Shown here one piece after another: positions 36,878 through 60,890 of a stretch of DNA of 64,000 bases (within the stretch, counting starts at the first letter, position 1; each line of letters opens with the position of its first letter). This DNA is from Yamadazyma tenuis (lineage: Eukaryota; Ascomycota; Pichiomycetes; Serinales; Debaryomycetaceae), in assembly GCF_029203305.1 (NCBI RefSeq), contig NC_089461.1:744001-808000 (forward strand). The letters are read 5' to 3'. The position numbers were made by a program, and so were the translations under genes. A model generated the notes under the pieces. That model saw nothing but the letters and a program-made list of their open reading frames with translations. It was not told the DNA's origin and ran no database searches.

Positions 36878-37595
36878 GTCCAATGTTTTGAGGTGTGGTG
36901 GGTAAGAACAATCGAACCTATTTGTATAGGCAACACGGACACGGAAGCCGAATTAATCTCAGGATGAATCTCCGACGGACGCGGGCCTATTTTGTGCGCG
37001 CTACCATCGGCTTTAGCATCGATCACGACCTCTCTGAGCTTGATAATTCAACCTTGATCGTATCATTGACAGTGAACAAGATAGGTACCATTAGCTGAGA
37101 CTTAAATACCCATTTCTTATGTACAGGAAGTTAGATCACATTATAGTTGAGTACAACTAAAGTAACTCACAAATATGACAATCCTTCAAACCAACAAAGA
37201 AAACGCTGCGAGGATTCCAAGATGTGCATATTCATAATGCATGAATGTGTCAAAGATGCATCCTGGAGTGAAAATGCTGGTGGGTCACAAAACATAAGGT
37301 CTCGTTCCAGGCAGAATTGGTGGGTGTCCGTAAAACCAGGGGAGATATTGTTAGGTAATTGATGGTTACCATTTTTCAATAGCCAACTAGTGATTGTAAA
37401 AACCCTAACTTCTCTCAAAGCCAAAGTCAATTAATAATCCAGGACTAGATAATTGGAAACTCACTCCACTTGTCGGTAATTCCACTGTTTCTTATCGGAG
37501 GGAAACCGCTTCGCGGAATCTGGTAGATAAGACGGAACTAGCCGCAAATCCTTTATATACTACGCGGTGCTCCTACTATCATTTTTCAACAGACA
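36878..37595 (+). promoter_or_regulatory. Divergent AKR/PuuE-1 promoter with GATA and CGG sites
   Basis: The half next to the PuuE-like gene carries CTTATC (37491-37496) fused to CGG-N7-CCG (37496-37508), GATAAG (37526-37531) and CGG-N6-CCG (37533-37544), followed by a TATA-like CTTTATATAC (about 37551-37560). The half next to the AKR has CGG triplets in ACACGGACACGGAAGCCGAA (about 36926-36945). GATAAG is the core of GATA-factor sites used in nitrogen catabolite regulation; CGG inverted repeats are typical of Zn2Cys6 dimers. Confidence 0.65.
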
Positions 37596-38600
37596 ATGTT
37601 TGATACAACAAGTGTTGGAGTGCTTCCAAAGGAAGTCAATGTGGATAAGAACCAAGGAACTAAGTACGATTTCAAAAGAGATTTGATCGGATACGGAAGG
37701 CAAGGATTAGATTGTCAGTGGCCTGAAAATCGCAAGGTAGCTGTATCTTTTGTGCTTAACTATGAAGAAGGAGCTGAAAGATCTTTATCATTAGGAGACG
37801 AAACAGCAGAGTTTTCATTGAGTACACCATCAAAAACTGGGCCCTTGCCAAACAGAGCCTATGATATTGAAACTGAATATGACTATGGATCCAGAGCCGG
37901 TGTATGGAGAATTTTAAGACTTTTCTCCAAGCATGAGAATAAAATTACTGCTTATGCTGTGGGTAAAGCATTTGAGAGAAACCCTGATGTTGCAAACGCT
38001 TTCGTCAGAGATGGTCATGAGATTGCCAGTCATGCCTATCGTTGGATTCCCTATGCAGATGTGGCACCTGAAGTTGAAAAAGCTTACATTTTGAAAGAGT
38101 TGGAAGCTTTGAAAGAAACAACTGGAGAAGATGCTCCTGGGTGGTATATGGGGAGACTTTCACCACAAAGTTGGGCATTGATCTGTGAGGTTTATCGGGA
38201 AATGGGAAAGGAGTTACCCTACATCAGTGACTACTATGGTGATGATGTCCCTTACTGGGCAGATATCCCAGCTGAACAGGATCTTCCTGACAATGAGAAG
38301 AAAGGTTTGTTGTTGGTACCATACTCTTTCGATTGCAATGACTACCGGTTTTTGAATGCCAATGGGTTCAGGTCAATCCAAGGATTCTACGACCACTTAA
38401 AGAATGCTTTTGATACGCTTTATGCAGAGGGTGGTAAGATGATGACTGTTGGATTACATTGTAGAATAATCGGTAGACCGGGTTATTTTCAGGCATTGAA
38501 GAAGTTTGTGGAATATGTCAACAGCCATGAAGACGTTTGGGTCTGTTCCAGATCTGATATCGCTTCTCACTTTAAGAGTAAATATCCATATAAGCCATAG
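37596..38600 (+). CDS. PuuE-type hydrolase 1 (allantoinase/polysaccharide-deacetylase-like)
   Basis: 334 residues. Strong resemblance to bacterial PuuE, the metal-independent allantoinase of the polysaccharide-deacetylase superfamily: DLIGYGRQGLDCQWPENRKV, AVSFVLNYEEGAERSLSLGD, YDYGSRAGVWRILRLF, FVRDGHEIASHAYRWIPY (the H-E-x3-H of the metal-site region), GWYMGRLSP, YGDDVPYW and MMTVGLHCRIIGRPGYF. NodB motif TFDDG is replaced by NYEEG, as in PuuE. Such enzymes open ureide or cyclic amide rings; the substrate is unknown. It heads a tandem pair with the next gene, to which it is roughly three-quarters identical by eye, and has a promoter with GATAAG and CGG-N(6,7)-CCG sites. Confidence 0.85.
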   Translation: MFDTTSVGVLPKEVNVDKNQGTKYDFKRDLIGYGRQGLDCQWPENRKVAVSFVLNYEEGAERSLSLGDETAEFSLSTPSKTGPLPNRAYDIETEYDYGSRAGVWRILRLFSKHENKITAYAVGKAFERNPDVANAFVRDGHEIASHAYRWIPYADVAPEVEKAYILKELEALKETTGEDAPGWYMGRLSPQSWALICEVYREMGKELPYISDYYGDDVPYWADIPAEQDLPDNEKKGLLLVPYSFDCNDYRFLNANGFRSIQGFYDHLKNAFDTLYAEGGKMMTVGLHCRIIGRPGYFQALKKFVEYVNSHEDVWVCSRSDIASHFKSKYPYKP

Positions 38601-38924
38601 ATTACAATTGACATGTCGTACTGAATCTGCGTATAAGAATAGTTATCAAATGAATATCGTAGGATAATATTCCGTAGGATAATTACATAAGGATCGGATG
38701 TTTGCCGACCATATCGGCTATGGAATATTGCTATTGGAAGAATCCAATAAAGATAAGAAAGATCAATTGCGGAAAAACTCCCCGAGGGCGCACCGCTGTC
38801 AAAACCGCTTATCTGTCAAAACCGCTTATCATCCCAAAAAATGTGCGGATGCTTCCGCAGAGATCAGAAAAGATATAAGGCCATTGGTATCCAATAGTGA
38901 GTCCTGTGAGGAGCATCATCTACA
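38601..38924 (+). promoter_or_regulatory. PuuE-2 promoter with tandem 17-bp repeat
   Basis: Holds two exact tandem copies of TGTCAAAACCGCTTATC (38797-38813 and 38814-38830), each joining CCG to CTTATC (GATAAG on the other strand). Further: another GATAAG (38752-38757) and the inverted repeat TGCGGA-TGCT-TCCGCA (38844-38859), i.e. CGG-N6-CCG. Together they suggest joint control by a GATA factor and a Zn2Cys6 regulator. Confidence 0.7.
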
Positions 38925-39935
38925 ATGTACGATATCACCACTGCTACTAGCATCCCAGAGGAAGTTAACATCGACAAGTTGGCTGGAACTAAATATGATC
39001 TTAAAAGAGATTTAATTGGTTATGGAGAAGAAGGCTTGAAGGTTCAATGGCCAAAAGGAAAGAAGGTTGCAATTTCTTTCGTTTTAAATTATGAAGAGGG
39101 TGGAGAAAGATCTTTGGCTCTCGGTGATGATACTAGTGAATTCTACTTATACACTAGCTCCAAGCCAGGTCCCTTTCCCAATAGAGCTTACGATGCTGAG
39201 ACTGAATATGATTACGGTTCGAGAGTTGGTGTCTGGAGAATCTTGAACCTTTTCAAGAAGTTCGGCAACAGAATCACTGCTTATGCTGTTGGTAAAGCTT
39301 TCGAAAACAATGTTGCCGTTGCCAAGGCTTTTGTTAACGATGGGCACGAAATTGCAAGTCATGCTTACAGATGGATTCCATATGATGATGTTTCTGAAGA
39401 GGTTGAAAAGGCTTACATTATCAAACAAATAGAAATCTTGAAGGAAACAACTGGAGAAGAGGCACCTGGCTGGTACATGGGAAGACTCTCTCCTCACAGC
39501 ATTGGATTAATTACCGAGGTTTATCGTGAACAAGGTAAGAAGCTTCCATATATTAGTGATTTCTATGGGGACGATGTTCCATATTGGGTTGATGTTCCAG
39601 CTGAAGCTGATCTCCCCGATGAAGAGAAGAAAGGTCTTTTGTTGGTTCCATACTCGTACGATTGTAACGATTTTAGATTCTTGAATGTCAATGGATTCAG
39701 ATCTACTCAAGCGTTTTATGATCATTTGAAGGGTGCTTTCGACACTCTTTACGAAGAAGGCGGTAAGATGATGACAGTTGGATTACATTGTAGGATTATC
39801 GGTAGACCTGGATACTTCCAAGCCTTGAAAAAGTTTGTTGAGTATGTGAACAGTCATGAAGATGTTTGGGTTTGCTCAAGATCTGACATTGCAAACACTT
39901 TTAAAGAGCAATATCCTTACAAGCCAAAGAAGTAA
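38925..39935 (+). CDS. PuuE-type hydrolase 2 (allantoinase/polysaccharide-deacetylase-like)
   Basis: 336 residues, tandem paralogue of the preceding gene, same strand, about 320 bp apart. Same signatures: DLIGYGEEGLKVQWPKGKKV, AISFVLNYEEGGERSLALGD, YDYGSRVGVWRILNLF, FVNDGHEIASHAYRWIPY, GWYMGRLSP, YGDDVPYWVD and MMTVGLHCRIIGRPGYF. Over the last 45 residues or so the two proteins are identical while their DNA differs at many third positions, so both copies are under purifying selection. Likely a hydrolase opening a cyclic ureide, amide or imide; direct evidence of substrate is lacking. Confidence 0.85.
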   Translation: MYDITTATSIPEEVNIDKLAGTKYDLKRDLIGYGEEGLKVQWPKGKKVAISFVLNYEEGGERSLALGDDTSEFYLYTSSKPGPFPNRAYDAETEYDYGSRVGVWRILNLFKKFGNRITAYAVGKAFENNVAVAKAFVNDGHEIASHAYRWIPYDDVSEEVEKAYIIKQIEILKETTGEEAPGWYMGRLSPHSIGLITEVYREQGKKLPYISDFYGDDVPYWVDVPAEADLPDEEKKGLLLVPYSYDCNDFRFLNVNGFRSTQAFYDHLKGAFDTLYEEGGKMMTVGLHCRIIGRPGYFQALKKFVEYVNSHEDVWVCSRSDIANTFKEQYPYKPKK

Positions 39936-39992
39936 TCATTTATACAGCTTCTATAGAAATACAAATTATGTGAGTGTGAATACTTTGAGACG

Positions 39993-41864
39993 TTAACCTT
40001 GGTTGTGGTGCTTGATATTCTCTAGAATCTGGTCCCAGAAATCTTCACTGAGATTATTGGGTGTTTGGAAAGTATCAAGGATTGGATTTGTCGTATCTGC
40101 TTTATCCACGATGTTGGATTCTTTGGGACTATTTTTGATTTTATCTATGTCCTCCAAAAGACTATCAAATAAGTCACTGTAGGTTTTAGCTTCCACCCAT
40201 CTTTCTGAAAATACAAACAACAAACTGGAACCTGCCCTGAGATCATTTTGAATGTTTATAAATGTTGGCTCGCCCTTGTTTTTCAAGTAATAAACCATTG
40301 TGATACCTGCTAAGAAAACTGTATGTAATGCCACAATACTGAATTCTAAGATTGAATCACGGTAAAGCTTCTTGTAACAAGAACAAATCTTTCCAGCAGC
40401 AAGACAAGCTTGGTCCAAGAGCAGATCTCTCTCGGAATTATGACTTCTCATTAATAATGGTAAAAGCAAAATCAACCTGGCCCTATAGTACAGTAAATCA
40501 AGAAAGTCATAGCTTTCTCTCTTATTCATCACCATCTCAAATTCATCACGTGAAGGTAGACTGTGATACCAATTGTCAATATCTGCTTTGAGTGTTTCAA
40601 TTGTATCAGCTATTGGAAAATTATTGTTCACTGAATATAATAACAAGTGAATTCTAGTTTCGATGATTCTGATATTTGTTGTGGCTATGAAGGAGGTAAA
40701 ACCCGAGATAGATTGCTTGAAGTTTGGTTCCCACTGTTGTTGCAATTGTAATTGGTATAACTTTTGATAGTCGGCCTCAACTGGGCGTGTAGGAAAATCT
40801 ATACTTATTGGATAAGGTAAATCAACGAAATTATCAACAATGGAGCATGGTCTTCCGAGAGACAAAGACAAAAGCTTATCATAGTTATAAGCTGACCAGA
40901 ACATCCTCTTTATGAACTCATAATTCCAACAGTTCTGAAGGGTCAGAGGCTGCTTTCTGAAATATCCAAATTGCACAAGCTTTCTAATGGCACATCCAGT
41001 TAGTTCCCAGGCAGACACATAAAAGGATAAGTGATAACTTCTGCTAATAAACACGGCAATCAACAAACATGCCTGCAGCTGTCTCAAAGGGTTCATGTTG
41101 GCATTAACCAATTCCTTCAAAGCTCTTCTTAAATACACTTCAGGCTGTGGATATGTGGTGACGTGCAACAATTCTACTAATCGACATCCTATAGCCAATG
41201 CCATATGCCAGCAAAACTTCTCCCAAGAATTTCTTTCGCCAACAGGCTTACCCATCATTTTAAAGAACTCAACATGATCAATAAAGTATCCTCTATTATG
41301 GGCTAAACTGAAGAATTTGTCAAGAAAATTGGTTTCCATTCTATCGGGAACGAAGTCCTCCTCTCCTATAACATTATCCAAGATGATCGGTAAATATTCC
41401 GGCTCTTGTTCTTGTCCTAGAAGAAGGGTCTTTATACTTTTTACAATGGTGATCACTGCAAAACTTCCAATGTATTCATTTTCTTCTCCAGAAGTTTTGA
41501 AAAGCACTTTGGACAATATTTCTGTGAATATTGTTTCAGCAAGTTTGTTACTCCCTCTGACCATATCATGAGGGTTAAACGGTTGTAGCTGTTTCTGTTG
41601 CAGTTCCAAAGACTGTACCATGCTCCGTAAGCGTCGGTTTTCTTCTACCAAATCCAAATTTTCTTGTTTAACAGTAGCCAATTCTTTAGTATACGCTTCG
41701 CTACCACCATTTTGAACAAGTAGTGATTTCAAAGAATACTCGCATTCGGCGTTAGACCGGGCACACAGCTGGCATGGCTGACTCCCATCACACCTCCGTT
41801 TCCTTTTCTTGCAGCGATCACAAGCAATGGGGACTCTGCTTCGTTTTCTACTGGGCAAACTCAT
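39993..41864 (-). CDS. Zn2Cys6 transcription factor 1 (cluster regulator candidate)
   Basis: 623 residues. Zinc cluster at residues 14-43: CDRCKKRKRRCDG followed by C-x2-C-x6-C, fitting C-x2-C-x6-C-x5-C-x2-C-x6-C. A heptad region follows (VKQENLDLVEENRRLRSMVQ, about 64-92), the usual dimerisation coiled coil, consistent with binding inverted CGG repeats. The rest resembles the fungal_trans domain (CWHMALAIGCRLVELLH, ACLLIAVFISRSYHLSFYV, FIKRMFWSAYNYDKLLSLSL with GRPCSI). It sits inside the catabolic cluster, immediately downstream of the amidase-1 gene on the same strand with only about 110 bp upstream space. A CTG codon (41766-41768) lies between the fourth and fifth zinc Cys. A pathway-specific activator is inferred. 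Confidence 0.88.
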   Translation of the reverse strand: MSLPSRKRSRVPIACDRCKKRKRRCDGSQPCQLCARSNAECEYSLKSLLVQNGGSEAYTKELATVKQENLDLVEENRRLRSMVQSLELQQKQLQPFNPHDMVRGSNKLAETIFTEILSKVLFKTSGEENEYIGSFAVITIVKSIKTLLLGQEQEPEYLPIILDNVIGEEDFVPDRMETNFLDKFFSLAHNRGYFIDHVEFFKMMGKPVGERNSWEKFCWHMALAIGCRLVELLHVTTYPQPEVYLRRALKELVNANMNPLRQLQACLLIAVFISRSYHLSFYVSAWELTGCAIRKLVQFGYFRKQPLTLQNCWNYEFIKRMFWSAYNYDKLLSLSLGRPCSIVDNFVDLPYPISIDFPTRPVEADYQKLYQLQLQQQWEPNFKQSISGFTSFIATTNIRIIETRIHLLLYSVNNNFPIADTIETLKADIDNWYHSLPSRDEFEMVMNKRESYDFLDLLYYRARLILLLPLLMRSHNSERDLLLDQACLAAGKICSCYKKLYRDSILEFSIVALHTVFLAGITMVYYLKNKGEPTFINIQNDLRAGSSLLFVFSERWVEAKTYSDLFDSLLEDIDKIKNSPKESNIVDKADTTNPILDTFQTPNNLSEDFWDQILENIKHHNQG

Positions 41865-41974
41865 TTGTAGAACAAATATTTCTTATCTCAACTTTTTTAT
41901 CTGAGATCCTAGCCTAGTCTACGCACGAATCCTTCTAGACTCTTTGTTAAAAACTAAAATTATATTGATTCTAT

Positions 41975-43564
41975 CTAGCAAGCCTTCCAATCATTGGCCA
42001 GTTCCCAGCCATATGCAGCACGATATATGGAAAGTTCGTCAAAATGTTTACCAATAATCTGTAATCCAACTGGAAGCTTGATATCAGGATTATCAATGGC
42101 TGCAAGAAATCCTACAGGTAAAGTGAGAGCTGGATGGCCAGTCATATTGAATATTCCGGTATTGGCATTCAAACCGATAGTGTTTTTGATCAATTCCAAA
42201 GGAGTTCCGTCTCTAATTCCGTGTGGAGGTGCTACCACGGGAACAGTGGGGGTAATCAAAACATCCACTTGCTCTAAAGCTTTGTTGTACTCATCTCTGG
42301 CCTTAAAACTCAAATTGATAGACTTGACGTACAAACTAGGATAATGCTCAGAAAGATATAATCCGTTAACAATACCGTTCTTGACTGGCACCGGAGTTTT
42401 GTCGAACAGCTCCTGGGTCCACGGTAAAATATGGCTTGCGTATTCTGTGGATTTAAGAATTCTCCTTCCTGTTTGTAATCCAAGTTTCCTCACACATCCA
42501 CTTATTCTTTGGCCAATCATCCAGATTTCTGGAGCAACTAAGTGATAAGGAATTGAAATTTCTACAACTTCGGCTCCCAAGGCCTTGAATTTCTCTGCTG
42601 CTTCCAAGAACTTGGCTTTCATAGCGGGTGTCATAGTAGGAACTTCCAAACTTTCCTTCAAAATACCAATTTTCATACCTTTCAAACTGGATTTTTCAGT
42701 AATCTCTTTATACTTTGGAACATGTTCAATAGTAGGGGAACCATTTTGACGATCATCAAATCCATCCTGGCCAGCCATAACTTCTAACATAGTACAGTTT
42801 TCCAAAACGGTTCTAGTCATAGGACCACAATGATCAATATTAGTTTCCAAACTACCGATTCCAGTATATGGAACCAAGCCAAATGTAGGCTTAAATCCAA
42901 CAAGCCCACAGTGAGCTGATGGAACTCTAATAGAACCACCTTGATCAGCACCTACACCGATATCAATTTCTCCAGAGCCGACCAAGTACCCGGTTCCCGA
43001 ACTAGATCCTCCAGCTGAATATCCATCATGGTAAGGGTTTTCCACATTTCCAGTGGATGCTGTATTGGAAGAGGTGCTTGAACTTTGGTTTTCGCAGGTA
43101 GCCAACCCTTTAATAATTCCACCAGCTTCTAAAAGACGAGTTACAACCGTAGCATCAGCTTTAGGGACCCAAGGTTTGAAAGCATCGGTCCCAAAAATTT
43201 GAGGAACCCCAGCAATTTCAACACAATCCTTGATACAGATAGTCTTTCCAGCCAATGGCCTGTTTTTGGATAATTGTGGTTTGGTGTCTTCAATAGTAAC
43301 TTTATAGGCCCAAGCACCTTTCAAATTATCGGCTTTTTCTGGATAATGTATGTCCTTTCTTGGAAACCTGTCGAGAAAGGTAGGTTGATAATAATCTTCC
43401 ATGGCGACAAGTTTCTTTGCCGATCTGTCTAAAGCACAAAGAATCTTATAGTAATCTTCAACCTCATCGCTTCTCAATTGCAATCCAAGTTTGGCGGGTT
43501 GAGCATGAAGGTCTTCAAGAGTAACCTTGCAGTTAGGATCTGCTTCTAAGGAGGTGATAGACAT
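41975..43564 (-). CDS. Amidase-signature hydrolase 1
   Basis: 529 residues from the ATG at 43564 (the upstream extension starts with GTG and is not needed; paralogue alignment supports MSITSL). Amidase-signature family with Ser-Ser-Lys triad: Lys in KTICIKDCVEIAG, bridging Ser in GADQGGSIRVPSAHCG and nucleophile Ser in the Gly/Ser-rich loop GYSAGGSSSGTG. Also GLVGFKPTFGLVPYTG and the C-terminal HPALTLPVGF and LPVGLQIIGKHFDE. Hydrolyses a carboxamide to acid and ammonia; substrate not known. Divergent from the MFS gene, sharing a promoter with GATAAG and GCGGAA palindromes. About half identical by eye to amidase 2. Confidence 0.88.
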   Translation of the reverse strand: MSITSLEADPNCKVTLEDLHAQPAKLGLQLRSDEVEDYYKILCALDRSAKKLVAMEDYYQPTFLDRFPRKDIHYPEKADNLKGAWAYKVTIEDTKPQLSKNRPLAGKTICIKDCVEIAGVPQIFGTDAFKPWVPKADATVVTRLLEAGGIIKGLATCENQSSSTSSNTASTGNVENPYHDGYSAGGSSSGTGYLVGSGEIDIGVGADQGGSIRVPSAHCGLVGFKPTFGLVPYTGIGSLETNIDHCGPMTRTVLENCTMLEVMAGQDGFDDRQNGSPTIEHVPKYKEITEKSSLKGMKIGILKESLEVPTMTPAMKAKFLEAAEKFKALGAEVVEISIPYHLVAPEIWMIGQRISGCVRKLGLQTGRRILKSTEYASHILPWTQELFDKTPVPVKNGIVNGLYLSEHYPSLYVKSINLSFKARDEYNKALEQVDVLITPTVPVVAPPHGIRDGTPLELIKNTIGLNANTGIFNMTGHPALTLPVGFLAAIDNPDIKLPVGLQIIGKHFDELSIYRAAYGWELANDWKAC

Positions 43565-43893
43565 ATTAACTGCGCTTTCAGGAGTGCTGAACACTGTTAG
43601 TATGAAGCCACTTCTTTTTATAAAATCTCAGCATCCGGTCAACGGAATGGTTTCCGCTTTCCACTTATCAGGAGAAAATCTTATCTCGATTTCGCGGAAT
43701 GTAGAGCTGGCGGAACCTATTCCGCAAGTCTTCTTATCAAAGTTAGATGCGAGACATTGGCGGGTGTTTCCGTCCCAAGAGCCTTCCGCTATATTCTTGG
43801 TCTTTAATGGGTATACTAGTTTAAATGATCTATAATGATCAATTTTGGTAACTGAGTGGCAAGAGTTCTGCAAAATAGACAAAAAGGCAAAAC
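43565..43893 (+). promoter_or_regulatory. Divergent amidase-1/MFS-1 promoter with CGG palindromes and GATA sites
   Basis: Two related palindromes, CGGAA-TGGT-TTCCG (43643-43656) and GCGGAA-CCTA-TTCCGC (43710-43725), plus CGG-N6-CCG (43761-43772). Three CTTATC sites (43664-43669, 43680-43685, 43733-43738) and an isolated GCGGAA (43694-43699). This is the densest site group in the window and should drive both flanking genes. Confidence 0.72.
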
Positions 43894-45803: not shown

Positions 45804-45870
45804 TCACATATATAAACCACCACCAGACTTGATACTTGTAATGATCTTTAATTTCTCGTCTTGAGCACTG
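45581..45870 (-). repeat. Three diverged tandem copies of the 3' end of the NCS1-1 gene
   Basis: Units start at about 45581, 45676 and 45781 (AGAATTAA...), about 95-105 bp long. Each contains a version of CCAGACTTGATACTTGTAA, which is the reverse of the last codons of the permease gene. On the minus strand the copies read TSIKSGGGLYM (real gene end), then TNIKSGGGLVYV and TSIKSGDGFVY in the 3' flank. So the gene terminus was duplicated twice in tandem and then decayed. Confidence 0.82.
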
Positions 45871-47522: not shown

Positions 47523-47781
47523 TTCGATTATAGTTTAGCCGTTGATGTACTAAAGAAAATATAACTCTTTATGTAGTATTACAAACGGACTTAATCATGT
47601 TATGCTTTTTCTGTATTCGTATGATTTTTCTTATCGAGAAAGCCCGATAGGATGAATTCCGCCGAGGTGGAACTTCCCGCGCGCGGGAGATAGGGATTTC
47701 CGTCGACGCGCAGACGTCAAACGGCTATCGTGAGCTGTATATCTAAAACTTCAAGTAAGCGAAGATTTCGTATTATACACC
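47523..47781 (+). promoter_or_regulatory. Divergent NCS1-1/OYE promoter
   Basis: Carries CTTATC (47630-47635), TTCCGCC and TTTCCG triplets, and a perfect 14-bp palindrome TCCCGCGCGCGGGA (47675-47688), which has CCG-N4-CGG everted triplets. It lacks the CGG-N7-CCG site of the other cluster promoters. Confidence 0.6.
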
Positions 47782-50072: not shown

Positions 50073-50457
50073 GGTTGGCGATTTGCATTTTGGTACTTTC
50101 CCTCCTATATATAGTGGGTAGCAGGAGTTCGCGGCTCCCTATCTATGTCGGAGATTACTGGCAGGTGATAACGACTAATGCACCCCATTTGTGGTCCTAT
50201 TAAAAAGCTTATCGATAGGTAATCTGTCGGAGATGAGCCGATATGCAGGAAAACTTTCCTTGAGGTTGTGGCGGTATAACCCCGAAAAGACGCACGGAAT
50301 TGGACCATATCGCACTTGACACTTGCTTATCGAGCACTATCTGATCTCGTCCCGCATTTTCGGAAACATCCCGGTTATGATCTCTTCAGGATTGTGCTGA
50401 CAATCATTTAAAGAAAACCACCTCGAACCTATTTTGTGACACCAACCACAAACACAA
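50073..50457 (+). promoter_or_regulatory. Divergent PuuE-3/amidase-2 promoter with three CGG-N7-CCG sites
   Basis: Three CGG-N7-CCG inverted repeats at 50228-50240, 50272-50284 and 50361-50373, with unrelated 7-nt spacers (AGATGAG, TATAACC, AAACATC). Two CTTATC sites at 50208-50213 and 50326-50331. Shared spacing with different spacers is what a dimeric Zn2Cys6 factor requires. A TATATA element lies near 50106, about 35 bp upstream of PuuE-3. Confidence 0.75.
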
Positions 50458-52074
50458 ATGTCAGTATTTACCTTCGATGCTAAGGCTGGAAACCCAGTTA
50501 CTACTGATACCATTGTATCACTTGCGAACGAATTGGGAGTCAAGGAACACACCCAAATAGAATTGGAACAGTATAAGACTTTATTGGCGGTTTTCCACGA
50601 TGCCTGTGAAGAGCTTGATGAGATGGATGACTACCTTCCTGAAGTTGACTACGAAAGATTCCCTAGAAAAGACCCCTACTTCCCTCAACCAGAGGATAAC
50701 AAGTTAGGTGCCTGGGGTTACAAATGTGAAGTCAAGGACTTGAAGTACACGGGAGGTGGCTTGCTCGACGGTAGTAACATTGCTGTCAAAGACTGCATTG
50801 CCATTGCAGGCGTACCAATGCTTTTGGGAACAAACTTTGTCAAAGATTATGTTCCAAAAACAGATGCGGTCGTCATCACCAGGCTCATGGAAGCAGGTGC
50901 TACTATCCAGGGTAAAGCTGTGTGTGAAAACTTGTGTCATTCGGCCACTTCTCATTCAGCTGGAACAGGTCCTGTTCACAATCCTTTGGCTATTGGCTAT
51001 TCCACTGGAGGAAGTTCTTCCGGAAGTGCTGCTTTGGTGATGGATCCGGAAGAAGACATTGATATCACCATTGGGGCGGATCAAGGTGGTTCAGTTAGAA
51101 TTCCAGCAGGTTGGTGTGGAGCTGTTGGACTTAAGCCTACATTCGGTCTTATTCCTTTTACTGGGTGCGCTGGTAACGAGGCAACCAATGATCATTTGGG
51201 AGTTTTGACAAGAGATGTATTGACCAATGCCAAGGGTCTTCAGGCGATTGCTGGAAGCGATGGTATAGATGATAGAAGTTTTGGTGCTCAAACCTCTGAT
51301 TACTATTATGATTTGCTTGATCTTTCCGACCCAAAATGCTTGAAAGGCTTGAAAATTGCCATTTTGAAAGAAGGGTTTGAAAACAGAGCTGTTGAACAAA
51401 GAGTCAAGGATACTTGCTTAGCTGCGATTAAGAAATTCAAAGAGTTGGGTGCAACTGTAGAAGAAGTCAGCATTCCTCTTCATTCCAAGGGTGCTTTAAT
51501 CTGGACTGGTGTCTCAAAGATTGGTGGTTATTTGACGAAGATGGGTAATAACATTGGTAGAAGAGGAGTGTCATTGAACGACCTTACGCAGAAGTTTCTT
51601 GAGGCGGCCCATACCCAAGAAAACTGGGACCAAGCTTATCCATCATCTAAGAACATCTACTACAATGGCATGTATGCTGAAAAGAAGTTTCCTGGATTAT
51701 ACGGGAAATGTACCAACTTATCAAGAAAGTTAAGAGATCTGTACAATAAGGTATTGGAGGAATATGACTTGATTGTTTTACCAAACTTGCCATACATTGC
51801 ACGTTCTCATGCTGAGATTGGACCAAATGCAACCCCATTAGAGTTAATTGGGAAGCAAGTCGGTTTGAGTTCAAATACTGCTCCTTTTGATCAAAGTGGA
51901 CACCCTGCATTAGCTCTTCCCGTTGGAATGTTACCTATCTTAGAGGGGCCTTTGGCAGATAGTGGTACCAAACTTCCAGTATCACTTCAAATTGTAGGTC
52001 AGTGGTTTGATGAAAAAACGGTTTATAGAGCTGCCTATGCTTTTGAAAAGAGCTACAATTGGAAAGACCTTTAG
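50458..52074 (+). CDS. Amidase-signature hydrolase 2
   Basis: 538 residues, paralogue of amidase 1. Triad: Lys in SNIAVKDCIAIAG, nucleophile loop GYSTGGSSSGSA, and bridging Ser in GADQGGSVRIPAGWCG. Further family segments: AVGLKPTFGLIPFTG, DLIVLPNLPYIARS and HPALALPVGM, then LPVSLQIVGQWFDE. N-terminal about 75 residues helical as in nitrile-hydratase-associated amidases. In RKLRD-x-YNKVLEEYD a CTG codon (51739-51741) aligns with Glu in amidase 1, fitting Ser better than Leu. Hydrolyses an amide or half-amide to acid plus ammonia; divergent from PuuE-3, suggesting consecutive steps. Confidence 0.88.
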   Translation: MSVFTFDAKAGNPVTTDTIVSLANELGVKEHTQIELEQYKTLLAVFHDACEELDEMDDYLPEVDYERFPRKDPYFPQPEDNKLGAWGYKCEVKDLKYTGGGLLDGSNIAVKDCIAIAGVPMLLGTNFVKDYVPKTDAVVITRLMEAGATIQGKAVCENLCHSATSHSAGTGPVHNPLAIGYSTGGSSSGSAALVMDPEEDIDITIGADQGGSVRIPAGWCGAVGLKPTFGLIPFTGCAGNEATNDHLGVLTRDVLTNAKGLQAIAGSDGIDDRSFGAQTSDYYYDLLDLSDPKCLKGLKIAILKEGFENRAVEQRVKDTCLAAIKKFKELGATVEEVSIPLHSKGALIWTGVSKIGGYLTKMGNNIGRRGVSLNDLTQKFLEAAHTQENWDQAYPSSKNIYYNGMYAEKKFPGLYGKCTNLSRKLRDLYNKVLEEYDLIVLPNLPYIARSHAEIGPNATPLELIGKQVGLSSNTAPFDQSGHPALALPVGMLPILEGPLADSGTKLPVSLQIVGQWFDEKTVYRAAYAFEKSYNWKDL

Positions 52075-52499: not shown

Positions 52500-54143
52500 T
52501 TATAGTGTTTTGTGTTCTGCTGACTGTTCGTCCAACGGTTCTAATCCTCTATCCCTAACAACAACATTGGAAACCAAGCAAAGAGAAATTGACCCCATCC
52601 AGAAGTAAAATACATTCTTCAAAGAAGACATGTATGCCTCTATCAAAAATTCACTTTGATCTTTCGAGTAACTGTCCAAAGACAAAGATGAATACACCTG
52701 GGACTTTAACCCTATGATCTCGGAGGATGTGAAAAGATCACCCCCCAATGATAAATGTTTAGAAAAACTGTTAGCTATGATAGTCGAAGCAACTGCCAAA
52801 CCAACGGCACCCCCAAATGATCTTAAAACATTTCTGGCAGATATCACAGTAGCTCTATCTCTCTTGAATGACTGTGCTTGGGCAGCCACTAAAGTTGGCT
52901 GGAAGATAGCACCTACTCCAGACCCGTTAAGAATCAAGGGTATAATAATTTTTGCCTGGTTAGCATCTGGTCCCCAAAGACACAATAGGCATACACCCAA
53001 GGTCCATGCTATATATCCATACCAAACCACATAAATATAATGACCAGTACGAGATATTACCTGCCCACAAATAACAGAAGTTGTCGACTGTGGTAGCACC
53101 AATGCCAATAGATGTACACTTGCTTTTATTGCACTGTACCTTCTCACTATTTGAAAGAAATACGGATAATAGTATACATGCCCAAAGTAGCACATTCCGA
53201 AGAAAAAGTTCTGCAATAACAAACATGTTAAAGACATCCTAGTGGAGAATAAGTTCAATGGGATCATGGGTAAAAAGGCGATTTTCTTCTCGACAAAGAA
53301 AAACATCATTCCAGATACTCCACCTATGACCAAGAAAGAAATCACCAAAGGACTTGACCAAGAGTAGTATGTCCCCCCACCACTGACTGGAATAAGAATG
53401 AATATGATAGCAACTGAACTGAAGAAAAACCCAAGATAGTCTATTTTTGCAAGCTTCTCCTTCAATGTCATCTGTGGTCTGGTGAATGGCACTAGCCAGA
53501 AAATAATTGCAGCCGCTAAAATTCCTATAGGGAACATCATGTAGTAGAACTTTCTCCAAGAAAGATGACTAATGAAGGCAGATGCCAAAATTGGACCAAG
53601 TGCGTTTCCCAATCCTACAAAACTTCCCAATATACCTTGGTACTTCCCCCTTTCTTTCAAAGTGACTATATCCGAAACAATCACCATAGTCAAAGAAGTG
53701 ACACCTCCATTTCCAATGCCACAAAACCCCCTGAATATGAACAATTGATAAGGTGTTTGTGCAAATCCACAAGCAAGATCAAATACTGCAAGTACCAATA
53801 GACATCCTATCAAGACATATTTCCTGGAGAAAATGTCACTGAATCTACCAAAAAGAACCATGAACATAGTGGTGCTGATCAAGGAGGCAGTCCCGGCCCA
53901 CGATATTGTATTCTCTGCATCAAGTTCCTCCGCTATGTATGGAAGAGCCACTGTTATAGCTGTTTGGTCAACAAAACTTAGGAATAAAGATACGGACATG
54001 GCAGAAAACACCACAAGAAGCTTCTGTTTAGACAAGGTATTTTCATGGGAATTGGCGAGGGTGTCAGCTACCTGTATACCCTCATCCTTAAGCTTTTTAT
54101 TGTCGCTGGAGACGGATACAGCAACTTCCACCTTCTCATCCAT
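52500..54143 (-). CDS. MFS transporter 2, DHA2 (14-TM) type
   Basis: 547 residues with about 14 hydrophobic segments, related to MFS-1. Motifs: FLSFVDQTAITVALPYIAEE, FGRFSDIFSRKYVLIGCLL (motif A), FRGFCGIGNGGVTSL, GLGNALGPILASAFISHLSW (motif C), and IGVGAIFQPT-like segment GSGVGAIFQPTLVAAQA shared with MFS-1 (GLGIGFTFQPTLLALLS). N-terminal about 45 residues polar and charged. Probably a proton antiporter exporting an organic compound. Divergent from NCS1-2, mirroring the arrangement of MFS-1 with amidase 1. Confidence 0.88.
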   Translation of the reverse strand: MDEKVEVAVSVSSDNKKLKDEGIQVADTLANSHENTLSKQKLLVVFSAMSVSLFLSFVDQTAITVALPYIAEELDAENTISWAGTASLISTTMFMVLFGRFSDIFSRKYVLIGCLLVLAVFDLACGFAQTPYQLFIFRGFCGIGNGGVTSLTMVIVSDIVTLKERGKYQGILGSFVGLGNALGPILASAFISHLSWRKFYYMMFPIGILAAAIIFWLVPFTRPQMTLKEKLAKIDYLGFFFSSVAIIFILIPVSGGGTYYSWSSPLVISFLVIGGVSGMMFFFVEKKIAFLPMIPLNLFSTRMSLTCLLLQNFFFGMCYFGHVYYYPYFFQIVRRYSAIKASVHLLALVLPQSTTSVICGQVISRTGHYIYVVWYGYIAWTLGVCLLCLWGPDANQAKIIIPLILNGSGVGAIFQPTLVAAQAQSFKRDRATVISARNVLRSFGGAVGLAVASTIIANSFSKHLSLGGDLFTSSEIIGLKSQVYSSLSLDSYSKDQSEFLIEAYMSSLKNVFYFWMGSISLCLVSNVVVRDRGLEPLDEQSAEHKTL

Positions 54144-54430
54144 TTTGTTTAAACAGTAAAAAAGTCCATTGGCTCATGTCTTAAAAGATCGACTGCGAAA
54201 TAAAACGGCGGAAGTGCAGCACCTAACGGAATTGTCATTTACGGGCACCACACGATAAGAGTCTCGGAGGATCGCCGAAACTGTTGTGTGCGAAATAATA
54301 CGATCAACCAAAATGAAAATCCAATCTCCGATAAGAAGCTCGCCTGGCAGATTCTGTTACGTTATAAATACCACGATACCAACGAATAACTCATGCTCAT
54401 AATCATATCCCTTAAGTTTTTAAATCTCAA
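54144..54430 (+). promoter_or_regulatory. Divergent MFS-2/NCS1-2 promoter with CGG-N7-CCG and GATA sites
   Basis: CGG-N7-CCG at 54265-54277 (spacer AGGATCG), GATAAG at 54254-54259 and 54330-54335; the latter is fused to CTCCG (CTCCGATAAG), the reverse of CTTATCGGAG seen upstream of PuuE-1. Extra CGGCGG and ACGGAA triplets at 54206-54230. Confidence 0.7.
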
Positions 54431-56131
54431 ATGAAAGTTTTCAGCAAATTAAGAATAAAGACCGTGCCTAAAGGTCCGCATGCCTGGTACAACAGAGATC
54501 TTTTACCAACTCCTACCGACGAAAGAACTTGGGGTATTTACCACTTTTTGTTTTTCTATTTTACTACCTCGTTGACGCCTTCTTCTTATACGTTGGGTTC
54601 CACGTTGGTCAGTAATGGTTTACTCTGGTGGCATGGATTGATATGTGCTGTCATTGGAAGTTTTTTTCTTTCCATCGTACTCGTGTTTAATTCTAGAGCC
54701 CCTTCAGTGTATCACTTGGGGTTCCCTACCATTGTCAGAGCGGCTGCTGGGATGTACGGCTCGTACTTTTTCATCTTTGTCAGAATATCGGTGGCTACGA
54801 TTTACTTTGCAGTGCAAACATATTTCGCGGGCCTGTTGATGGACGTGCTTATGAGATGCATTTTTGGGTATAAATGGGTGAACATCGAGAACAAGTTGTC
54901 TTCGGACTCAGGGATCACTTCTCGGGGGTTGCTTTCATTTTTCCTCATATGGTTTTTCCAGTTGCCACTTATGTTTATGCATCCAAGACACCAAAGACAT
55001 CTTTATTCGGTTAAAATGATCACTACTACCACCTCGTTATTCGCTGTATTTGGCTACTGTGTCAGAAAGGCTGGTGGTACTCTTGGTACTCCAGAATCAT
55101 TGGCAACGGACAGGGTATATGGTTCTGACTTGGTGTGGGGAGTCATTTCGGGTATTAATTCCATTATGGGAGCGTTATGTCCAATTTTGATCAATACTGG
55201 TGATGTGGTCAGATACGCCAAAAGACCCAGTGACGCTGCTTGGATCCAGTCCTTTGCTGTGTTGTGCTCTAAAGTCTTGATCACTTTCCTCGGGTGTGGT
55301 ACTACTTCTGCTGCCAAGGTGTTTTTGGGAGAAACCTATTGGAACCCATGGGATCTTTATAATGGCTTATTGGACCACAACTGGTCGGCTGGCATGAGAA
55401 CTGGTATTTTCTTTGCGTCCCTTGGTATGATTATAGCTTTGGTAATCGTCAACGTCGGTACCAACTGTTTGCCTGTTGGTGCTGATGCCACGGGTATGTT
55501 CCCCAAATATGTGAATATCACCAGAGGTCAATTCTTGTGCTGGTTGGTGTGTCCACTCTTGTTCCCATGGAAGATACTGAGTAGTGGAGCGAGTTTTTTG
55601 GCGTTCTTGGGAAGTTATTCGGTGATGTTATGTCCTATTGCTGCTACTATGATCTACGACTACTTTATCATCAGAAGAGGAAACTACCATATTCCTTCTT
55701 TCTACAACCCTGACGGAACTGGGGTTTTCTGGTATAATAAGCTTGGTGTGAACTGGAGAGCAATGGCTGCGTGGGTTATTGGATGTGGTTTTACTATTTC
55801 TGGGGTGGCTAACTCAGTGACCCCAGGGTCCATTGGTATTGCTGCTGTCAGAATCTACCAACTTGGGTTCTTGTTGTCTTTTATCGTGGCTTTTGTAGCT
55901 TACGGTACTCTCTGTTTTGCTTTCCCCGTCAAGAACATCTTACCTGATGATAAGGACATCAAATCGATAGGTTTTGAAGAGTTGGCCCAAAGTGATGGAT
56001 TTCTTCCAGGAGAGTCATTGGACAGTATTATAGAGCCAACCGTGGAGATCATTGATAGTGAGACTATCCCAGAATCCAATTCGATTGGAAATGAAAAAGG
56101 TAATTTTGTAACTTCCTCTAAAGAGCTTTAG
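54431..56131 (+). CDS. NCS1-family nucleobase/ureide permease 2
   Basis: 566 residues, about 12 hydrophobic segments, Fur-type NCS1 symporter. Signatures: LLPTPTDERTWGIYHFLFFY, SVYHLGFPTIVRAAAGMYGS, IYFAVQTYFAG, LINTGDVVRYAKRPSDA, VGTNCLPVGADATGMFPKYV, NITRGQFLCW and IYDYFIIRRGNYHIPSFY. Shares RCIFGYKW and related blocks with NCS1-1, so the pair are paralogues. In the substrate region NCS1-1 has NQPDIARYAK and this protein NTGDVVRYAK, hinting at different substrates. C-terminal tail about 50 residues, acidic. Confidence 0.9.
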   Translation: MKVFSKLRIKTVPKGPHAWYNRDLLPTPTDERTWGIYHFLFFYFTTSLTPSSYTLGSTLVSNGLLWWHGLICAVIGSFFLSIVLVFNSRAPSVYHLGFPTIVRAAAGMYGSYFFIFVRISVATIYFAVQTYFAGLLMDVLMRCIFGYKWVNIENKLSSDSGITSRGLLSFFLIWFFQLPLMFMHPRHQRHLYSVKMITTTTSLFAVFGYCVRKAGGTLGTPESLATDRVYGSDLVWGVISGINSIMGALCPILINTGDVVRYAKRPSDAAWIQSFAVLCSKVLITFLGCGTTSAAKVFLGETYWNPWDLYNGLLDHNWSAGMRTGIFFASLGMIIALVIVNVGTNCLPVGADATGMFPKYVNITRGQFLCWLVCPLLFPWKILSSGASFLAFLGSYSVMLCPIAATMIYDYFIIRRGNYHIPSFYNPDGTGVFWYNKLGVNWRAMAAWVIGCGFTISGVANSVTPGSIGIAAVRIYQLGFLLSFIVAFVAYGTLCFAFPVKNILPDDKDIKSIGFEELAQSDGFLPGESLDSIIEPTVEIIDSETIPESNSIGNEKGNFVTSSKEL

Positions 56132-56186
56132 AGGTATAATTGTGATTTAAATAGTAATATAAGGGTGAAATAAATTGACTAAACAG

Positions 56187-58235
56187 CTAAAGATCAATCC
56201 CGAGACCGGAATGATTGTTGTTCAAGTTTCCTAGTCGCCTGAAGATCGTGTCGACGTCAGAGAAATCGAATAGCACATCGAAGTTTTCTTCTTGAATGTA
56301 CTCCAGGTTGGCCAAAGTGTTAAACGTCTTCATATTGTCAATAAAGTGTCTTTTATTGGCCTCTTTGATAAACTGGTCCTGTCCAAACATGTCAGAGGAG
56401 TCAGTCAAACTCAGTAGTCCCCCTATTGGTCTTTCGTAATCGGATGTCAACAGTCCTTGCTGTAAGCTCCTTGCATGACTAACTTGCTCGAACAACTTTT
56501 CAAACGCGTCTCGGTACTGTGAGCAACTCGGACATCTTTCAGCCAATAGCACCAACGTCGAAGAGCAGCTCCGGAGACCTTCACTTACATCAAAGTCCCA
56601 TATTACTTTCCTGGAAAACAACCCATATATGATCGTTACTCCACTCAAAAATATGGTCTGAAGAGATACAATTGAAAGCCTGTGCCGAGAGCTACGGCTA
56701 TCGTGGATTCTTCTGTTCAACTTGCAGATATTGATGGAACTCTTGATACACTCAATGAAAAGCGGGTCGTTCGCCTCAAGCCTATTCATGAACGGAACAA
56801 TCAAGGACCTGATTTGTTTGTTATACAAATAAAGGCAGTAGTCACACTCACGCTTGGTCAAATATGAAGGTAGGCTATCAAGCCAATGCTTCATCTTCCC
56901 TTGGATCTCCGCTATTATCTGTCTGGGGATATCTTCAAATGGAATATCCACTCTATAGATTTTGTTGTGAATCTTGCTGTCGATCTGTCGGAGCTTGAAG
57001 TAGATTATGGCCACAGAAATAGAGGTTCTTGTGTTAGTTGCCCCTTCGTCTTCTTCAACAGGAAAGTTTTCTAAGTTCAAATGGGGATATGTCTGGTAGA
57101 ACTTGTTCTTGATAGACATATCATCGGTTACCGACTCATCAATATCTATGGGCAAGTCAATATCGATATCCCTGTCATTTATAGAAAATGGTCTTCCGAA
57201 AAAGTTGCTGATAACTTTCTCTAGAGCGTAAACTGACCAAAAGGTCCGACATTGGATCAAGTACGCAAATGGGTTACTCACAAAGAACTCTAGGTTCCTT
57301 CTGTGGAGTCCAAACTCAATACACAACCTCAAAGCTGTCCCCACCAAATACCATATTGTCAGTCCGTTAGGAAATCTCAACTTGTATATCACCAATAGAA
57401 GGATGGCATGGACATTAGATATGGTTTCAGCCTGAAGCACCGACTTCAAATCCTTGCTCAAAGCATGTTTATATAGACTGAAATGAGCCACTGTGTTTTG
57501 ATCGGGCGAGTTGGCATCCTGCTTCAAATACGCCCCAATGGCATACACCATCAATAAAATAAATCTATCCATCACCAGACCAGATTTAGGCTTTAATATA
57601 AGACGATATGCATTGTTGTGAAGGGACTCCACATATGTCCTGCTCAAAAACGGAAATCGGGTATGTATTATGGTGAGGTAGTTTTCCATATAATATGAGG
57701 TCAACTTCTCGTCTTTTATGATATCCTCTATCTTCGGTAGATTGATTTGGGCTCCCATATTGGAACCAGAATCTGCATCTGGATAATCCGCAACTGCTTC
57801 ATCCTCTAGGAGGTAGCCTTCAATCATATGAGCGACGCTGAAGCCAGAACCTCCCACATAAACAGACGTTTTGTCATCATTTTTTAAGGGTATAAACGCA
57901 GCACATTCAATAATGCTCTTTTTTAACCCGCTTCCTGGTGAACTGCTATCTATACTTGACGACTTATCTAATCCGGGGCTTGAAATGTCTTTTTTCAAGG
58001 CAGACTCTTCCAAATCCTTGATTTTGGACTCTAAAAAGTCTACTCTTTGTTGCAACATCTTTACGTAATTTGGCTTCATTTGTTCATTGAAGACACAGGC
58101 TTCATTAACCTTGGTACAGCTAGTGCAAGACGCCCCACTAATAAAGTCTCCGTCACACTTAGTTTTTCTGGCCTTGCACCGCTGGCATGCCAAAGATACC
58201 ACGCCTTTCCTTCTGTTTTTCACTGCCTTATCCAT
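56187..58235 (-). CDS. Zn2Cys6 transcription factor 2
   Basis: 682 residues from the ATG at 58235; an earlier in-frame ATG (58295) would add 20 hydrophobic residues before the zinc cluster and is less likely. Zinc cluster: CQRCKARKTKCDG, then nine residues to C-x2-C-x6-C, a spacing seen in many fungal activators. A short coiled coil follows (MLQQRVDFLESKIKDLEE), then a Ser-rich linker and a fungal_trans-type domain (LTIIHTRFPFLSRTYVESL, LTIWYLVGTALRLCIEFGLH with RRN, CRTFWSVYALEKVISNFFGR). It flanks the cluster next to NCS1-2 and is a second candidate for binding the CGG-N7-CCG sites. Confidence 0.85.
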   Translation of the reverse strand: MDKAVKNRRKGVVSLACQRCKARKTKCDGDFISGASCTSCTKVNEACVFNEQMKPNYVKMLQQRVDFLESKIKDLEESALKKDISSPGLDKSSSIDSSSPGSGLKKSIIECAAFIPLKNDDKTSVYVGGSGFSVAHMIEGYLLEDEAVADYPDADSGSNMGAQINLPKIEDIIKDEKLTSYYMENYLTIIHTRFPFLSRTYVESLHNNAYRLILKPKSGLVMDRFILLMVYAIGAYLKQDANSPDQNTVAHFSLYKHALSKDLKSVLQAETISNVHAILLLVIYKLRFPNGLTIWYLVGTALRLCIEFGLHRRNLEFFVSNPFAYLIQCRTFWSVYALEKVISNFFGRPFSINDRDIDIDLPIDIDESVTDDMSIKNKFYQTYPHLNLENFPVEEDEGATNTRTSISVAIIYFKLRQIDSKIHNKIYRVDIPFEDIPRQIIAEIQGKMKHWLDSLPSYLTKRECDYCLYLYNKQIRSLIVPFMNRLEANDPLFIECIKSSINICKLNRRIHDSRSSRHRLSIVSLQTIFLSGVTIIYGLFSRKVIWDFDVSEGLRSCSSTLVLLAERCPSCSQYRDAFEKLFEQVSHARSLQQGLLTSDYERPIGGLLSLTDSSDMFGQDQFIKEANKRHFIDNMKTFNTLANLEYIQEENFDVLFDFSDVDTIFRRLGNLNNNHSGLGIDL

Positions 58236-58308
58236 TATCGCTTGAGAAGAAAAAGATACGAGTTTCGCGATAACGAAGGTACATGAAAAGTACATTTATC
58301 ATTATCCA

Positions 58309-60846: not shown

Positions 60847-60890
60847 TGTTTGCAGCATCCACTTTTGCATACGTCAAACAAGTTTTTATC

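Follow-up and report, generated by a model that had tools for sequence, protein, structure and literature searches.

The 64,000-nucleotide stretch of Yamadazyma tenuis DNA analyzed here (the window) holds a gene cluster that probably operates under nitrogen catabolite control and lets two distinct cyclic compounds (ureides, imides, or amides) serve as nitrogen source by way of two modules. Judged from sequence, two parallel modules read better than one pathway. Each contains a PuuE-type hydrolase, an amidase, an NCS1 permease, a DHA2-like transporter, and a Zn2Cys6 regulator, with regulators and DHA2-like pumps assigned presumptively to their modules, and a single Old Yellow Enzyme (OYE) lies between the two. 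In the scheme that we infer, which covers all reactions, the ring class, and the role of the OYE, the NCS1 permease of each module would import the ring, the PuuE-type hydrolase, which is without the CE4 metal motifs, would open it at a C-N bond, and the amidase-signature enzyme would free ammonia from the resulting linear compound, an amide or carbamoyl derivative, while the DHA2-like pump may export substrate or toxic intermediates. The OYE would reduce a C=C bond in an unsaturated ring ahead of opening. GATAAG would be the site for GATA factors, and CGG-N7-CCG that for one or more of the Zn2Cys6 proteins. Module 1 (PuuE-A/B, amidase 1, NCS1-1) would keep an allantoinase/hydantoin-like pocket, and module 2 (PuuE-C, amidase 2, NCS1-2) would be re-specialized for another, possibly bulkier ring.

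Profile scans used Pfam and NCBIfam, and the genome searched comprised 10.86 Mb in 8 contigs. Every gene family listed in the original prediction was recovered as an intact open reading frame at about the expected place with a Pfam match above cut-off: three Polysacc_deac_1, two Amidase, two Transp_cyt_pur (NCS1), two MFS_1, one Oxidored_FMN, and two Zn_clus + Fungal_trans (Table 1). The extent given for the cluster held for the gene positions, but its end, 58235, falls within TF2. A third adjoining regulator (TF3) had been overlooked. The top NCBIfam models agree with the names used here, yet the PuuE, NCS1, and DHA2 genes all score under the curated cut-offs (NCS1, TIGR00800, 323 and 288 bits against 353.1; DHA2, TIGR00711, 196 and 166 bits against 230.2). 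The cluster holds three of the four PF01522 matches in the genome, the fourth being a CE4-type deacetylase, along with 2/10 amidase and 2/7 NCS1 matches. Amidase 1 carries the amidase-signature motifs at K112, 181-190, and S211. Judged by its nearest named proteins, which come from Pichia kluyveri (76%) and Pichia californica (65% and 69%), this yeast resembles Pichia.

Table 1. Genes and upstream regions of the cluster, in window coordinates
Feature	Position	Strand	Evidence or sites
PuuE-A, PuuE-type hydrolase, module 1, tandem copy 1	37596..38600	+	PF01522, PDB matches, TIGR03212
PuuE-B, tandem paralogue of PuuE-A, 79% identical	38925..39935	+	Pfam, NCBIfam, pairwise identity
TF1, Zn2Cys6 + Fungal_trans regulator	39993..41864	-	Pfam, Cys pattern
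Amidase 1	41975..43564	-	PF01425; nearest PDB 3a1k; motifs
DHA2-1, MFS transporter	43894..45477	+	Pfam; top NCBIfam model DHA2 efflux, below cut-off
NCS1-1 permease, usual TM3 Trp kept	45804..47522	-	PF02133, residue comparison
Old Yellow Enzyme	47782..48873	+	PF00724; HGANGY + RDTFY motifs
PuuE-C, PuuE-type hydrolase, module 2	49059..50072	-	Pfam, NCBIfam, AlphaFold model
Amidase 2, oriented divergently to PuuE-C and repeatedly its partner in other fungi	50458..52074	+	Pfam, linkage
DHA2-2 transporter	52500..54143	-	Pfam; top NCBIfam model DHA2 efflux, below cut-off
NCS1-2 permease, Tyr instead of TM3 Trp	54431..56131	+	Pfam, residue comparison
TF2, Zn2Cys6 + Fungal_trans regulator	56187..58295	-	Pfam, Cys pattern
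TF3, two C2H2 fingers + Fungal_trans; neighbor of uncertain membership	58309..60870	-	Pfam, finger pattern
PuuE-A upstream region	36878..37595	.	GATAAG 37491, 37526; CGG-N7-CCG 37496
PuuE-A/PuuE-B intergenic	38601..38924	.	GATAAG 38752, 38808, 38825; CGG-N7-CCG 38695
TF1 upstream region	41865..41974	.	GATAAG 41882
Amidase 1/DHA2-1 divergent promoter	43565..43893	.	GATAAG 43664, 43680, 43733
NCS1-1/OYE divergent promoter	47523..47781	.	GATAAG 47630
PuuE-C/amidase 2 divergent promoter	50073..50457	.	GATAAG 50208, 50326; CGG-N7-CCG 50228, 50272, 50361
DHA2-2/NCS1-2 divergent promoter	54144..54430	.	GATAAG 54254, 54330; CGG-N7-CCG 54265

By full-length match, the three hydrolases are members of the PuuE-type NodB subfamily as opposed to the CE4 deacetylases. 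PuuE-A matches PDB entries 3s6o, 1z7a, and 3cl6 at E ≤ 2e-81, and a profile of PuuE-A/B/C relatives scores 377-382 bits to PuuE structures (377 to 3cl6) versus 79 bits to 3qbu (HpPgdA, a relative of HxnM) and 37 bits to the chitin deacetylase 7bly. The first-ranked Foldseek match of the PuuE-C AlphaFold model is likewise the PuuE allantoinase 3cl6. The CE4 motifs, including an Asp and His-His triad, bind metal; in the PuuE-type hydrolases they are replaced (NYEEG, HxxRW), and the H138 and W142 of the HxxRW pair are present in 70/70 C-type and 40/40 A-type rows. A CE4 chitin deacetylase was rejected as an identity, the metal-binding triad being absent from the PuuE-type hydrolases. Several relatives are filed under the name "chitin deacetylase 1". 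The motif-3 Trp is found in 39/40 A-type and 79/80 bacterial rows and in 0/70 C-type rows, and PuuE-C is without both this residue and the GLHCR motif. In a midpoint-rooted tree the fungal PuuE-type rows are set apart from the bacterial rows; PuuE-A/B do not join firmly to other A-type ascomycete rows (nearest fork, with Mollisia, 92/87).

The structural kinship raises the alternative of a second, metal-independent allantoin route, in which PuuE-A/B/C are allantoinases for purine breakdown beside the DAL genes. The cluster hydrolases share subfamily, fold, and replacement of the CE4 metal motifs with their closest characterized structure, the PuuE allantoinase of Pseudomonas (3cl6), which is reportedly that of Ramazzina et al. 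2008; the NCS1 family includes allantoin permeases; and 63 of the 80 bacterial loci kept of PuuE relatives have an allantoicase, while none of the 80 has an amidase like those of the cluster, so that sequence alone would still permit allantoinase activity. They differ from the Pseudomonas enzyme in their separate fungal rows, their amidase partner, and the residues gone from PuuE-C, and all three score below the TIGR03212 cut-off (PuuE-A 331.8 bits, the others 317.3 and 303.1, against 424.6). To our knowledge, amidase-signature enzymes take no part in the step from allantoin to allantoate. A metallo-allantoinase (470 bits, cut-off 357.9), an allantoicase (393 bits, cut-off 277.9), and a uricase (348 bits, cut-off 168.4) are encoded in the genome outside the cluster, which makes allantoin, one of the substrates originally entertained, unlikely as the main one, and we consider the route as a whole unlikely. 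The Saccharomyces DAL cluster combines an NCS1 permease and a cyclic ureide hydrolase with nitrogen catabolite control via GATAA sites. The present cluster resembles it in its NCS1 permeases, putative cyclic ureide hydrolases, and predicted control; unlike DAL, its hydrolases are of another family, and the allantoinase and allantoicase genes sit elsewhere in the genome.

The original prediction had taken all of these genes as plausibly serving a single task; how the sequences are related, together with the pocket residues, instead favors two parallel modules with differing specificities. The PuuE and NCS1 pairs are each mutually closest in the genome, and so is the amidase pair among the amidases compared: the two are 43% identical, while the best of 7 of the 8 other genome amidases (all but that at C3:33148) reaches 29% over a part. 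The DHA2 and TF1 pairs are not: DHA2-1 and DHA2-2 are 38% identical, no closer than two other genome transporters (37% and 38%), and TF1 has its closest relative elsewhere in the genome (35%), with TF2 second (27%). These two relationships rule out a clean block duplication of the modules. The module 2 hydrolase and permease are each without a tryptophan kept by module 1; the permease residue, in TM3, is kept in NCS1-1 and in the genome's 5 other NCS1 proteins, and 32 of 33 NCS1-2-like rows have Tyr or Phe there.

The hexamer GATAAG is present in all seven cluster upstream regions tested, with 14 sites in 2412 bp, against a mean of 1.58 and a maximum of 8 in 2000 shuffles of these regions. It occurs 3 times across 15 further intergenic regions (8921 bp in all), 17 times within the cluster's coding DNA (20520 bp), and not at all in three 3' intergenic regions. 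CGG-N7-CCG was observed 6 times versus 0.24 in shuffles (0/2000 reach 6); it is absent from control intergenic DNA and missing from 3/7 cluster upstream regions. A similar GATAAG density is seen in 3 of 25 other upstream regions (locus L008 and uricase, 5.0 per kb; locus L029, 6.9), and neither metallo-allantoinase (0 in 258 bp) nor allantoicase (1 in 600 bp) reaches it. Because every region tested carries GATAAG, nitrogen control is indicated, and this enrichment gives the cluster the appearance of a regulon for the catabolism of nitrogen sources. Upstream of the OYE there is a single GATAAG but no CGG-N7-CCG; the GATAAG site and the gene's position would be what suggests a ring reducer. These data also bear on detoxification, a rather improbable reading in which a toxic cyclic plant or microbial compound is taken up, reduced, and hydrolyzed or exported, any nitrogen gained being of secondary importance. 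Such a role would suit the two DHA2-like transporters, the OYE, and the three regulators at the cluster; the ubiquity of GATAAG speaks against it, as do the two uptake permeases, which argue for use rather than exclusion.

The closest working parallel to the catabolic cluster that we favor is the HxnM-HxnN step of Aspergillus nidulans, with a different hydrolase subfamily. According to PMC9304392 and PMC8478523, a NodB-fold hydrolase there opens the ring and an amidase then frees ammonia, with an OYE (HxnT) upstream; hxn is under GATA-type nitrogen control, and the hydrolase and amidase genes are clustered in many species. This fungal hydrolase-then-amidase precedent (PMC9304392) was missing from the original prediction. 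The cluster likewise pairs a NodB-fold hydrolase and an amidase with an OYE and predicted GATA-type control, but has NCS1 permeases and two modules with Zn2Cys6 regulators, and no FAD monooxygenase among its scanned genes. A variant hxn nicotinate cluster, with the OYE as HxnT, the hydrolase and amidase as HxnM/HxnN, and the C2H2 protein as HxnR, is very improbable. PMC8478523 gives a family list to which the OYE, hydrolase, amidase, MFS, and two-finger C2H2 + Fungal_trans genes correspond (TF3 and HxnR share this architecture) and describes, in Pichiaceae, an hxn cluster into which an amidase has been inserted, and the genome has 7 PF01494-type FAD monooxygenase matches elsewhere. We rejected this identity on the hydrolase subfamily (the profile scores above), on HxnV (PF07976, 0 matches in the genome; the control search was positive in 1/14 genomes), on the lack of an FAD monooxygenase among the cluster genes scanned, and on the predicted HxnR site GHGGGG, with 0 occurrences in the 7 cluster upstream regions. 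No HxnM-type cyclic imidase emerged either: the cluster hydrolases are PuuE-type and the genome's other PF01522 gene found is CE4-type.

Among the genome's 4 PF01979 genes found (3/4 assigned), no dihydropyrimidinase was identified, and URC4 gave no match in a search whose control was likewise silent. In the reductive pyrimidine (PYD) pathway the ring is reduced, opened, and relieved of ammonia, the order proposed for the cluster. Both amidases have 3a1k as nearest solved relative, which we take to be a Rhodococcus enzyme of a bacterial nitrile pathway; unlike the cluster amidases, it is not known to be linked to a ring hydrolase.

Module 2 (PuuE-C, amidase 2, permease 2) recurs, by these sequence matches, in other yeasts and in filamentous ascomycetes. 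Linkage was counted among the listed matches, the window included, and denotes two matches whose contigs have the same length, apparently one and the same contig. An amidase-2 match (at least 120 in all) is linked to 18 of 79 listed PuuE-C-type matches versus 0 of 38 A-type; an NCS1 match (47 listed) is linked to 9 of the at least 120 amidase-2 and 5/79 C-type matches. Locus tags are adjacent in Cyphellophora (HMPREF1541_03640/03639), Cirrosporium (M1834_001735/001734), and Talaromyces (BHQ10_006626/006627) and 14 apart in Pseudocercospora eumusae. Most C-type matches (61/79) are without a linked amidase-2 match among the matches listed, and in Aspergillus falconensis the matches listed lie on different contigs. 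Placing the cluster "in a yeast" was too narrow, because filamentous ascomycetes have module 2 too. That widespread fungal families lie side by side here by chance, without a shared function, is scarcely credible: fungi commonly carry amidase, MFS, and Zn2Cys6 genes (this genome has 10 matches to amidase, 45 to DHA2-1, and 35 to TF1), but the upstream regions share motifs, the linkage recurs across both groups, and the PuuE-type genes found in the genome are all at one place. The families, the promoter motifs, and the PuuE-C/amidase-2 linkage support the predicted cluster for nitrogen catabolism, in which a PuuE-type enzyme would open the ring before the amide is hydrolyzed.

Our searches, made in an open-licence library, gave no description of such a cluster. 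A more tentative proposal, possible rather than probable, is that NCS1-2, PuuE-C, and amidase 2 form a nitrogen-salvage module that recurs in fungi, is apparently undescribed, and acts on a non-allantoin cyclic imide or ureide, in which the ring-binding tryptophan of hydrolase and permease changed together, and that Pichia-type yeasts joined to it a sister module handling another ring, so that the regulon serves two substrates. If true, a fungal clade partly filed as "chitin deacetylase 1" would consist of enzymes that open rings inside the cell and have an amidase and a permease as recurrent partners, and some yeasts and filamentous ascomycetes would have a nitrogen route for which the open-licence library gave no description. 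The two modules would also be a natural pair in which the specificities of transporter and enzyme seem to have shifted jointly.

The cluster interval holds twelve intact genes, and the gene family that the original prediction had named was confirmed for every one of them. Module 1 comprises the tandem PuuE-type hydrolases PuuE-A and PuuE-B, amidase 1, and the permease NCS1-1, probably with the regulator TF1 and the DHA2-like transporter DHA2-1; module 2 comprises PuuE-C, amidase 2, and NCS1-2, probably with DHA2-2 and the regulator TF2, and a single Old Yellow Enzyme (OYE) gene lies between the two. Adjoining the cluster is a regulator absent from that prediction, TF3, whose two C2H2 fingers and Fungal_trans domain reproduce the layout of HxnR, the regulator of the nicotinate (hxn) cluster of Aspergillus nidulans. 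The genome measures 10.86 Mb. Among the matches listed, the nearest named relatives of the cluster proteins come from Pichia kluyveri (76%) and Pichia californica (65% and 69%), which makes this a Pichia-like yeast. A few kb to the left of the cluster, a D-glutamate cyclase family gene sits beside an acyl-CoA dehydrogenase-like gene.

Locations of the cluster and of the other loci discussed
Feature	Location	Description
Cluster	37596-58295	modules 1 and 2 and OYE
TF3	58309-60870	C2H2 + Fungal_trans regulator
D-glutamate cyclase family gene	32811-33740	PF07286
Acyl-CoA dehydrogenase-like gene	31367-32623	
L123	G000:C2:1130672-1132483	closest TF1 relative
L008	G000:C5:515490-516848	amidase gene
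L029	G000:C1:1802763-1803119	amidohydrolase
Eighth other amidase	C3:33148	
Deacetylase + amidase site	C5:416-423 kb	CE4-type deacetylase

The main direct evidence that these genes form a nitrogen-source regulon is their shared promoter motifs. Upstream of the cluster genes, seven regions totalling 2412 bp (the short stretches before TF2, 13 bp, and TF3, 52 bp, being excluded) contain 14 GATAAG sites, at least one in each, against a mean of 1.58 and a maximum of 8 in 2000 dinucleotide shuffles of these regions. The controls, of our own choosing, were 15 further intergenic regions from the window (8921 bp in total), which contain three sites; elsewhere in the cluster there are none in three 3' intergenic regions and 17 in 20520 bp of coding DNA. 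The upstream regions of 25 other genes, taken from loci already extracted with a few omitted, carry 0-3 sites per 258-600 bp, and three of these genes, including uricase and neither allantoinase nor allantoicase, have a density like that of the cluster. The arrangement CGG-N7-CCG, which has the typical form of a Zn2Cys6 binding site, is found six times in the cluster upstream regions versus 0.24 expected and zero in the controls, and none of the 2000 shuffles reaches six. Among the 21 CGG/CCG spacings scanned, N6 is also high (three, equalled in 8 of 2000 shuffles). Half of the six N7 sites lie between PuuE-C and amidase 2, and three of the seven upstream regions have none. The amidase gene L008 carries three GATAAG and one CGG-N7-CCG in its 600 bp upstream and is a possible extra member of the regulon. 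The amidohydrolase L029, which has no NCBIfam match at E<=1e-20, has two GATAAG in 291 bp upstream.

A clean block duplication as the origin of the two modules finds no support in the relationships of the DHA2 transporters and TF1. NCS1-1 and NCS1-2 are mutually closest within the genome (36% identical), as are the amidases (43%) when compared with seven of the eight other genome amidases, the eighth falling outside the comparison; the DHA2 pair (36%) and TF1 (23% identical to TF2) are not. The match of TF1 to its closest relative, L123 (35%), is interrupted by two stop codons, and L123 is probably decayed or intron-bearing. PuuE-A and PuuE-B are 79% identical, and each is 44-46% identical to PuuE-C. 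In a midpoint-rooted tree of 58 chosen proteins, with long branches flagged, PuuE-C clusters with proteins of filamentous ascomycetes (24 rows, 100/100), PuuE-A/B form a separate group (6 rows, 100/100), and the rows from bacteria and basidiomycetes fall outside both; support for joining PuuE-A/B to other A-type (PuuE-B-like) ascomycete rows is not firm. These groups indicate A/B and C lineages that either predate this yeast or arrived separately.

The original prediction had proposed a search for the same gene set in other fungal genomes, and the linkage of module 2 does recur. We paired the matches of three protein searches (PuuE, amidase 2, and NCS1) by equal-sized contigs and locus tags, assigned PuuE matches as C-type or A-type from their BLAST score to PuuE-C or PuuE-B, and left three basidiomycete rows among the 120 listed PuuE matches out of the counts; because these rest on the matches listed, a missing partner says little. 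With 120 amidase-2 matches listed, one is on a same-sized contig for 18 of 79 C-type PuuE matches, the window being one of the 18, versus 0 of 38 A-type. An NCS1 match (47 listed) shares a same-sized contig with 9 of 120 amidase-2 and 5 of 79 C-type matches, window counted. Seven of the 18 contigs are only 7-32 kb long, so the PuuE and amidase genes must be close together there. In Cyphellophora europaea and Cirrosporium novae-zelandiae the PuuE and amidase genes carry neighboring tags, as do the PuuE and permease genes in Talaromyces amestolkiae; in Pichia californica the amidase and permease tags are two apart, the same as in the window, where the DHA2 gene intervenes. A shared large contig is no proof of adjacency, since the tags in Pseudocercospora eumusae are 14 apart, and in Aspergillus falconensis the listed PuuE and amidase matches are on different contigs. 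Protein P0247 of the CUG-Ser yeast Priceomyces carsonii is 70% identical to NCS1-2, no less close than most other yeast-like matches (64-75%); transfer of the module between yeasts is possible.

The enzyme and transporter of module 2 differ jointly from those of module 1. Among listed hydrolase rows of 290-400 aa plus the three from the window (PuuE-C counted twice), the column of PuuE-C residue 175, in CE4 motif 3 and part of the substrate groove, is Trp in 39/40 A-type, 79/80 bacterial, and 3/3 basidiomycete rows versus 0/70 C-type rows, which have Ala (44), Val (14), Phe (8), Tyr (2), Thr (1), or Cys (1); GLHCR likewise becomes P(L/M)H(S/T)R. The TM3 Trp, which stacks against the substrate in Mhp1 and FurE, is kept by NCS1-1 and occurs in all five other NCS1 proteins of the genome and in 9 of 11 more distant permease rows (three rows of <=440 aa left out). 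Of 33 NCS1-2-like rows (P0241-P0273, window's included), 31 have Tyr, one has Phe, and the remaining row is a short sequence poorly aligned at this position. We infer that these joint changes mean a different ring for module 2.

TIGR03212 (allantoinase PuuE) is the best NCBIfam model for all three hydrolases, each scoring under its cut-off. A profile built from 16 sequences, three from the window, scored 377-382 bits against the PuuE-type structures 1z7a, 3s6o, and 3cl6, versus 79 bits for HpPgdA (3qbu), 78 bits for a Mycobacterium protein (3rxz), and 37 bits for chitin deacetylase 7bly. The best structural match of the PuuE-C AlphaFold model (mean pLDDT 77.7, pTM 0.81; residues 56-90 poor) is also 3cl6. 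In the alignment, the CE4 metal motifs are replaced in PuuE-A/B/C. Given these structure matches and replaced motifs, "chitin deacetylase 1", the database name of several relatives, is probably a misnomer for the clade.

Allantoin was downgraded as the main substrate. Metallo-allantoinase, allantoicase, and uricase are encoded elsewhere in the genome, all above curated cut-offs, alongside an amidase ORF long enough for a urea amidolyase, and the cluster should therefore be dispensable for allantoin use. Bacterial neighborhoods, as a guide to substrate, gave mainly allantoinase operons: in the best 80 of at least 568 confirmed relatives found with two short patterns, tblastn searches with the yeast proteins as queries (E<=1e-8), reaching up to 10 kb to either side, located allantoicase at 63 loci, OYE at 2, NCS1 at 1, and an amidase like the cluster's at 0 of 80. 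Because 63 of the 80 carry allantoicase, allantoinase activity may be compatible with the sequences. A URC pathway search returned no match, its control being equally silent.

The closest working parallel is the HxnM-HxnN (hydrolase-amidase) step of A. nidulans nicotinate breakdown (PMC9304392, PMC8478523). Identity with the hxn cluster was rejected: the hydrolase subfamily differs, the HxnV family has no match in the genome, and no predicted HxnR sites occur in the seven cluster upstream regions. A second deacetylase and amidase site was dropped as an hxn-like pair, its deacetylase being CE4-type. No description of the cluster was found in open-licence papers, among them the two on hxn and a NodB review (PMC10967932); PMC9585004, which covers dihydrouracil oxidases, was of no help. 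The cluster belongs to a known kind, the fungal nitrogen-catabolic cluster. Its module 1 most likely acts on a small ureide or imide and module 2 on another ring.
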